A DNA stretch of 64,000 bases from positions 310,001 through 374,000 of the forward strand of contig NZ_CP098518.1 of NCBI RefSeq assembly GCF_023703795.1. The letters run 5' to 3'. Within the stretch, counting starts at the first letter, position 1. Every line of letters starts with the position of its first letter. This stretch comes from Haloplanus sp. HW8-1 (GTDB lineage Archaea > Halobacteriota > Halobacteria > Halobacteriales > Haloferacaceae). The notes under the pieces were generated by a model, which was not told the origin of the DNA, made no database searches, and worked only from the letters and a program-made list of their open reading frames with translations. The translations under genes and the position numbers were made by a program. Of the stretch, positions 35,941 to 53,313 are shown one piece after another.

Positions 35941-36024
35941 TATCGTAGCGATTGAAACTGGTTGCTCAGCCGATCGGACGCAGTACTGCGATCGGCTGCG
36001 TAATGACTTTCAATCGCTACTATA
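35941..36024. mobile_element. 84-bp palindromic element, copy 1
   Basis: The ends TATCGTAGCGATTGAAA (35941-35957) and TTTCAATCGCTACTATA (36008-36024) are inverted repeats with one mismatch. Inside, CAGCCGATCG and CGATCGGCTG pair perfectly around 12 nt. An equal-length relative, roughly four-fifths identical by eye, lies at 52722-52805. It is non-coding, so it resembles a MITE or other dispersed palindrome. It sits 13 bp past the stop codon of a CPBP-type gene. Confidence 0.75.
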
Positions 36025-51977: not shown

Positions 51978-52736
51978 GTGCCGCAGTGGGGGGCGTTCGC
52001 CGGCTTCGTCGGCGTCGTCCTCGGCGGTCTACTTCTCCTCGCGCGCGCATCGACCGGCGTCGTCGCTTCGTCGAACGACGACGACTTTCCGGCGACCCTC
52101 TCGGACCGCGTCGTCGACGCGCCCGCCGACGCCCAGACGCGGTCTCACACGACCCTCCCGACGCCGGCGCTGCTCGCGAACGTGGTCGTCTCCCAGAGTG
52201 TTTTCGCCTCTCTCCTGCTGGTCGGGGCGTGGCTGGCCGGGATCCCGGCGGTAGCGTTCGGACTCTCGGGAGCGGCGTTCGGGCTCCCGAATCTCGGCTC
52301 CGGCGTCGTCCTCGGTGTCACCCTCCACGGCGTCAACGCCGTCGGCTCGCGGCTCGGCGACCGCTTCGGACTCGGCGATTCGACGGCCCTCCGGCGAGCG
52401 ATGGCCCCGGACTCGGCCGCCGGCTGGGCGGTGCTCCTCCTGATCGTCCTCCCGCTCGTCGCCGGCTTCGAGGAACTCCTCTTCCGGGGCGTCCTCGTCG
52501 GCGCGTTCGCGGCGGGCTTTGGCCTCTCACCGTGGCTCTTGGCCGCCTGCTCGTCGGTCGCTTTCGCCTTCGGCCACGGCGCGCAGGGACGTGCGGGCAT
52601 CGTCGTCACCGGGGCTCTCGGATTCGTCCTCGCCGCCGCCTTCGTCGTCACGGGGAGCCTGGTCACCGTCGTGGTCGCTCACTATCTGGTGAACGCACTG
52701 GAGTTCGTCGTCAACGAGGGTTATAGTAGCGATTGA
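51978..52736 (+). CDS. CPBP-family intramembrane metalloprotease
   Basis: A 252-residue protein with about eight hydrophobic segments. The catalytic motif EELLFRGVLVGAF (EExxxRG) and the FxxxH-type SVAFAFGHGAQGR are intact, followed by LVTVVVAHYLVNALEFVV (third motif). Such proteases act within the membrane, in archaea often of unknown substrate. A GTG start at 51978 lies 2 bp beyond the lonB stop, so the two are cotranscribed. The final SSD and stop codon are contributed by an 84-bp palindrome. Confidence 0.87.
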   Translation: MPQWGAFAGFVGVVLGGLLLLARASTGVVASSNDDDFPATLSDRVVDAPADAQTRSHTTLPTPALLANVVVSQSVFASLLLVGAWLAGIPAVAFGLSGAAFGLPNLGSGVVLGVTLHGVNAVGSRLGDRFGLGDSTALRRAMAPDSAAGWAVLLLIVLPLVAGFEELLFRGVLVGAFAAGFGLSPWLLAACSSVAFAFGHGAQGRAGIVVTGALGFVLAAAFVVTGSLVTVVVAHYLVNALEFVVNEGYSSD

Positions 52737-52805
52737 AACTGGTTGCCCAGCCGGTCGTATACGGTACTGCGATCAGCGGTGCAACGACCTTCAATCGCTA
52801 CTATC
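52722..52805. mobile_element. 84-bp palindromic element, copy 2, overlapping two gene ends
   Basis: Left end TATAGTAGCGATTGAA (52722-52737), right end TTCAATCGCTACTAT (52790-52804) are perfect inverted repeats. It is collinear with the element at 35941-36024 over its whole length. The left end encodes ...SSD* of the CPBP protease and the right end, read on the minus strand, encodes ...DSSD* of the alkyltransferase-like gene; both stops (TGA) fall inside the terminal repeats. Likely also forms a hairpin terminator. Confidence 0.8.
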
Positions 52806-53273
52806 GGCCTCTAGGTCGCGGAGTCGGTCGGCCACGTCGGCGGGCGTCGCTCCAGGGCCGGCGATCCGGTGGTCGGGGATGAACAACGGCACCGGGTTCT
52901 CCCGGAGGGCCGTCCGTACAGTGTCGAGGTCGTCCTCGTCGTCGTCGTCGAGACCGGCCAGACGCGCCAGGCGCGCCACGTCCACCGTCTCGCCGTACGG
53001 GACGTTCCGCGCCGCTTCGAGGACCGCCCGCTGTTCGGTCGGGACGGTGAGCGCCACCGCGACGTCGTCGAAGTGATCCGTGGCCCCATCGAGGTAGTCG
53101 AACACCCGATCGAGCAGGGGGTGCTCGGGGTCGGCGTCTGCGGGTACCGTCTCGGGAAAGGAGACGCCCATGACCCGGTCGCCAGCGATACCCACCTGGA
53201 CCGCTCGCCCCAGCGTCGGGGCCTCGCGCGCGCAAAGTCCTTCCATGATCGCGTGGACGGCCGGGACACCCAT
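52791..53273 (-). CDS. DNA alkyltransferase-like protein with Cys replaced by Asp
   Basis: A 160-residue relative of O6-alkylguanine-DNA alkyltransferase. ARNVPYGETVDVARLARLAG is the DNA-binding helix region and RTALRENPVPLFIPDHRIAG the active-site strand. The acceptor motif PCHR reads PDHR (Asp134), so it cannot accept alkyl groups on Cys. Alkyltransferase-like proteins (with Trp there) flag damage for excision repair; an Asp version may do likewise, by inference. An acidic insertion (LDDDDEDDLDTV) is typical haloarchaeal. Alternative start at 53246. Confidence 0.82.
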   Translation of the reverse strand: MGVPAVHAIMEGLCAREAPTLGRAVQVGIAGDRVMGVSFPETVPADADPEHPLLDRVFDYLDGATDHFDDVAVALTVPTEQRAVLEAARNVPYGETVDVARLARLAGLDDDDEDDLDTVRTALRENPVPLFIPDHRIAGPGATPADVADRLRDLEADSSD

Positions 53274-53313
53274 ATGGGTTGCCGTCGGTCGTCCACGCCA
53301 TCTGGGACGCAAG

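Follow-up and report, generated by a model that had tools for sequence, protein, structure and literature searches.

The systems closest to the element described here are miniature inverted-repeat transposons (MITEs) of bacteria and archaea. One of them is RUP of Streptococcus pneumoniae, a 107-bp MITE whose mobility is attributed to IS630-Spn1, which is a short non-coding palindrome with IS630-like ends, a TA target and a hairpin transcript, and which is described as intergenic and as inserting into IS elements (PMC2229807). IS630-family elements insert into TA with duplication of the TA (PMC2170065), and a preference of IS630 for CTAG is the subject of the title of Tenzen and Ohtsubo (1991), as cited in PMC2170065. 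The YPAL/RU-2 and ERIC elements of Yersinia are hairpin MITEs as well, capable of cotranscription with the upstream gene and of fusion to reading frames, with YPAL having no terminal TA and variable duplications of 3-26 bp (PMC2229807). Among haloarchaea, the MITEs and small mobile repeats (SMRs) of Haloquadratum walsbyi, with HqIRS41 (80 bp) as an example, are transposase-free and carry terminal inverted repeats, and the SMRs are described as making no target duplication and as using other mobile elements as their target (PMC3119063).

The element studied here lies at 52722-52805 of the window (the whole stretch analysed, 64,000 nucleotides of Haloplanus sp. HW8-1, genome G000), and we read it as a non-autonomous IS630/Tc1-mariner-type MITE that inserted at a CTAG shared by the stop codons of two convergent genes (a "double stop") and thereby re-stopped both, a reading to which we assign a probability of roughly 0.88. 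The palindrome was recovered by repeat search, and its ends follow from 48 aligned copies of the genus with common ends and from empty sites. The 84 bp include the flanking TA duplications, the left one at 52722-52723 (placed by the element ends and by CTAG/TTAG empty sites) and the right one at 52804-52805, which the alignment of copies shows to have decayed to TC in this copy; they enclose a core of 80 bp (52724-52803). Repeat search and the alignment of copies place a left terminal inverted repeat (TIR), TAGTAGCGATTGAAA, at 52724-52738 on the plus strand and a right one, TAGTAGCGATTGAAG on the minus strand, at 52789-52803, and between the two lie internal inverted arms and a hairpin loop (52739-52788), delimited by the RNA fold and by compensatory changes among copies. 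The copy consensus ends as C-TA-TAGTAGCGATTGAAA...TTTCAATCGCTACTA-TA-G, and the base outside the TA is C on the left in 36 and G on the right in 38 of the 46 copies.

The left neighbour, on the plus strand, encodes a CPBP/Rce1-like intramembrane protease (51978-52736; Pfam PF02517, E 2.2e-14), and the convergent right neighbour, on the minus strand, an alkyltransferase-like protein with an MGMT DNA-binding domain (52791-53312; Pfam PF01035, DNA_binding_1, E 1e-8). A first-pass annotation of this DNA had claimed that one palindrome gives both genes their stop codons, and the sequence and open reading frames confirm it: the CPBP gene closes with the TIR-encoded TAT AGT AGC GAT TGA (52722-52736, plus strand; protein end ...GYSSD, the added tail being YSSD and a stop), and the alkyltransferase-like gene with GAT AGT AGC GAT TGA (52791-52805, minus strand; ...ADSSD, with DSSD and a stop). 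The Pfam domains end ahead of these tails, at residue 241 of 252 and residue 152 of 173, respectively. The same annotation had the 84-bp element filling the gap between the genes, which is correct as to its position, but it also overlaps the last 12 coding bases and the stop of each gene (the two stop codons being 54 bp apart), and the length it quoted takes in the TA duplications. That is, as judged from the DNA itself, the element is a two-way stop codon for both convergent genes.

The same junction in congeners indicates what the locus probably looked like before the insertion. No element separates the two genes in nine of 11 congeners, and there the protein ends differ, as the first-pass annotation had anticipated: the CPBP proteins end in VVNER, VNEWA or similar and the alkyltransferase-like proteins in RDLEA, RELER or similar, never in SSD. 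A search of the 11 congeners for an orthologue with an SSD-type ending at an element-free locus returned none, the sole other such endings (YRSD and SSSSD, each followed by the stop) being those of G007, which has its own copy at this junction. In four element-free congeners a CTAG or TTAG holds both stops, with TAG read on one strand and TAG or TAA on the other, and in the remaining ones the genes are separated by short gaps of 0-15 bp; the ancestral junction was likely a 4-bp CTAG/TTAG overlap of both stop codons. The junction copies of G007 and of our genome are only 68% identical whereas their flanks are 81-84% identical, and another copy in our genome is 90% identical to the junction copy, which makes two independent insertions more likely than shared descent; the latter is not favoured by these identities, although fast decay could mimic the pattern. 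In G009, the same junction carries an unrelated hairpin element, a member of a second short hairpin family of about 78 bp (TAGGGGTTATCGTAACTGTC...CCGATAATCCCTA) that is abundant in G001, G002 and G009 (L272 = G009:C1:1180593-1180673; L273-L291), often with TCA/TGA repeats at its flanks and with several copies abutting a gene's stop codon.

The annotation had also called the palindrome mobile, and its distribution bears this out, since it is a short, non-coding, dispersed repeat with 14 copies in its own 3.84-Mb genome. A second copy lies within the window at 35941-36024 (plus strand), in an intergenic position that is not a double stop; the motif AGTAGCGATTGA, allowing at most one mismatch, has four matches in the window against 0.09 expected, two of them in this second copy. 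Copies are present in five of 11 congeners, and among 60 relatives no other genus matches this query. The two-way stop recurs across the genome: in eight of the 14 copies both neighbours are convergent and stopped by the TGA of the TIR, and in the genus this holds for 20 of 46 usable copies, or about 22 of 50 with L354 (G008) and L359 (G006) added (genes at copy flanks were called with a home-made codon-usage caller, which leaves an uncertainty of a few in these counts). Across the genus, the stop-replacing frame accounts for 56 gene ends that continue into a repeat, and the other stopping frame for seven; random insertion into reading frames would give near-equal counts, and the insertions are therefore into stop codons.

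The joined flanks of the seven other double-stop loci of the genome were searched in eight congeners, and at most of these loci the junction reads CTAG or TTAG in at least one congener, usually gapless and with a single TA between the flanks (the flanks of L013 aligned poorly). In most of the congeners in which genes were called at these empty sites, both genes end on that CTAG and overlap by 4 bp. Such single-TA empty sites, found at the present locus and at most of the others while consensus copies have TA on both sides, together with stops of both genes on CTAG, are direct evidence of the TA duplication and of the double stop that preceded the insertion; the C and G flanks of the copies and the CTAG/TTAG empty sites likewise reveal a CTAG preference like that of IS630.

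As these observations show, insertion at the TA of the TAG stop within CTAG destroys both ancestral stops at once, turning TAG into TAT and letting the frame read on through AGT AGC GAT TGA, so that YSSD is added to each protein and both are stopped again. The palindromic CTAG holds the stops of both genes, and for this reason the two receive the identical tail. We further propose that an IS630-family element would have provided the transposase in trans, that copies at double stops would be tolerated because either protein is barely changed, and that such copies might then be hard to lose because their deletion would send both frames into the antisense strand of the neighbour; the hairpin may also help to end or protect both transcripts. 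The first-pass annotation was thus right about a mobile element, element-derived protein ends and a two-way stop, and it missed the mechanism, the probable IS630-type affinity and the multi-locus pattern. Its further idea of domestication is, in the strict sense, conjectural.

The search for the source of the transposase turned up relatives. Genome G003 has a 1,059-bp IS630-family element, with relatives in G002 and G400, whose ends read C-TA-TAGTAG or TAGTAA..TTAGAA, mostly with CTAG flanks, and the best IS630 TIRs match that of our element at about 10 of 15 bases. DDE_3 transposases are also present in our own genome, with TIRs unlike those of the element. DDE_3 searches of 22 genomes found IS630 relatives only and no parent IS with the exact TIR, and G006, which bears near-identical young copies, had no DDE_3 match; unpaired TIR matches, considered as ends of a full parent IS, were degraded or nested copies. 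In the stop-replacing frame, the fifth codon of most IS630 ends seen is TAG, and the fifth-codon stop may hence be older than the MITE, although the ends are few and the agreement could be chance. In diverged relatives of the element, the fourth codon, before the terminal TGA, is GAT, GAC, CAT or AAT. It is tempting to hypothesize that the transposon ends are fitted to the target, each bringing a new stop in frame as its fifth codon, a feature conserved in diverged relatives. Double stops, at which an insertion could be expected to damage two genes together, would thus become safe havens in which the element is then locked by the dependence of both genes on its stops, but we regard this extension as tentative and rather doubtful.

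Other haloarchaeal families widely carry a related 84-bp sister element (TATAGTAGCCATTGAAA...), plasmids of Halomicrobium, Haloarcula and Natrinema among them. In other genera the sister element usually lies away from gene 3' ends and, despite C/G flanks, 0 of 42 copies are at double stops. In the plasmid collection, 52 haloarchaeal records match the sister element and one (Halostella) weakly matches our own; the phage records searched with the sister element had no match, the strict TIR-pair pattern had only two chance-like bacterial matches in genome contigs, and the Rfam covariance models had none for our element at E up to 1. A further 84-bp element, with ends TATAGTAGCCTTTGTAAG and TATAGTAGCGTTTGTAAC, was seen in G003 (L101:2253-2337), which suggests that several MITE families share this length. 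Other hairpins are nested in 84-bp copies: an element of the form TACGG/TACTG...CCGTA occurs inside copies in two species (L085, G006:C1:1583846-1584012; L354 1998-2165, G008), each time with the TGA/TCA of a terminal repeat duplicated. In L053 and L093 the loop at the centre seems to run opposite to the arms, as a flip of the hairpin would leave it, and a diverged double-stop copy (L359 1998-2081; G006:C1:165952-166034) has the identical A-to-G change in both arms (TAGTAGCGGTTGA each side), hinting at homogenisation between arms.

How the element came to be so frequent at double stops can be explained in more than one way. That the palindrome is not mobile, having evolved locally or through convergent evolution of both C-termini, has in its favour only the symmetry of the arms at this site, and we give it virtually no credence since it is refuted by some 14 copies scattered through the genome, by their sharply defined ends and by the empty sites. 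A more serious alternative is pure target-site bias, that is, a transposase preferring CTAG within compact convergent overlaps, with no later selection. The CTAG target is established, CTAG is about ten-fold depleted in the chromosome (250 seen against an expectation of 2,535 in 800 kb sampled at even spacing, L212-L251) so that few sites exist, and the insertions at the same junction in G007 and in our genome are apparently independent. However, double stops make up only nine of the 250 sampled CTAGs (3.6%) as opposed to 57% of the copies in the genome (P 7e-9 by a binomial test, and 8e-7 if only the 136 non-CDS CTAGs are counted), only two of the eight young copies of G006 are at double stops, and the sister elements have the same CTAG preference and none there; in the one such genome sampled, Halomicrobium, double stops are 1.5% of CTAGs (two of 134). 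The corresponding count for G010, which has no copies, is seven of 190, and among the 126 convergent gene pairs of our 800-kb sample, 15 have an overlap of exactly 4 bp. The excess means that either the transposase prefers such junctions beyond CTAG or survival is longer for copies at such sites. The copies that serve as the end of no gene seem to be younger (identity to the nearest copy in the genome 0.95 vs. 0.875, P = 0.02), but the difference is not significant against all other copies (P = 0.17), and neither is a Fisher test of young vs. old copies (P = 0.44). We consider target bias by itself somewhat unlikely, and we lean, tentatively, to the view that double-stop copies survive longer and lock in, possibly being retained through the dependence of both genes on their stops.

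It is also conceivable that the element was recruited or kept as a bidirectional transcription terminator or a stabiliser of mRNA 3' ends, its stop codons being a by-product. The RNA fold is very stable on both strands (-52.3 kcal/mol, z = -7.6, on the plus and -48.2, z = -7.7, on the minus strand), the internal arms covary (nine double substitutions vs. a shuffle mean of 1.7 and maximum of 6), G009 has a hairpin element of another kind at this very junction, and in Haloferax volcanii hairpins lie upstream of 503 termination sites, one tested hairpin having ended 59% of transcripts (PMC7237163). Yet the efficient terminator signal in H. volcanii is a T stretch (PMC7237163), and an intrinsic terminator scan found no U-tract or terminator-like site at the element; palindromy is, moreover, expected of any MITE and could also be maintained by transposition or arm homogenisation, and the 3' ends of genes are not where the related elements of other genera usually lie. 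A role as hairpin terminator, which the first-pass annotation had proposed, is plausible as an addition, whereas recruitment for it, with the stops as a by-product, seems to us improbable.

Insertion into double stops is a concrete and repeatedly used route, visible in the sequence, by which a selfish element is built into the genes of its host with next to no harm, since a single event re-terminates two genes and gives unrelated proteins an identical short tail. This may explain the persistence of these elements in archaeal genomes that are dense in genes and poor in CTAG. The many filled and empty site pairs amount to a natural experiment on the termination of convergent genes, and annotators should be aware that the YSSD/SSD C-termini shared here are transposon-derived.

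Compared with the systems described previously, the element resembles the Haloquadratum SMRs in length, in lacking a transposase and in having terminal inverted repeats, but it differs from their description in its TA duplication and in a TIR that partly resembles IS630 ends, rather than one unrelated to transposons. It shares the hairpin and the fusion to reading frames with YPAL and ERIC, for which no double-stop replacement is described (PMC2229807), and an earlier report of such replacement was not found in the open-access papers searched. The haloarchaeal IS630-family elements (1,055-bp core plus TA at each end; L096, L097, L152) are like it in their TA-flanked TAGTAG/TAGTAA ends and mostly CTAG flanks, and unlike it in carrying a DDE_3 transposase and in their partial TIR match. 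RUP is likewise a short non-coding palindrome with TA at its target and is set apart, by description, in being bacterial and in the absence of any described re-supply of stops to gene pairs, which is what the present element does at this locus and at others across its genome.
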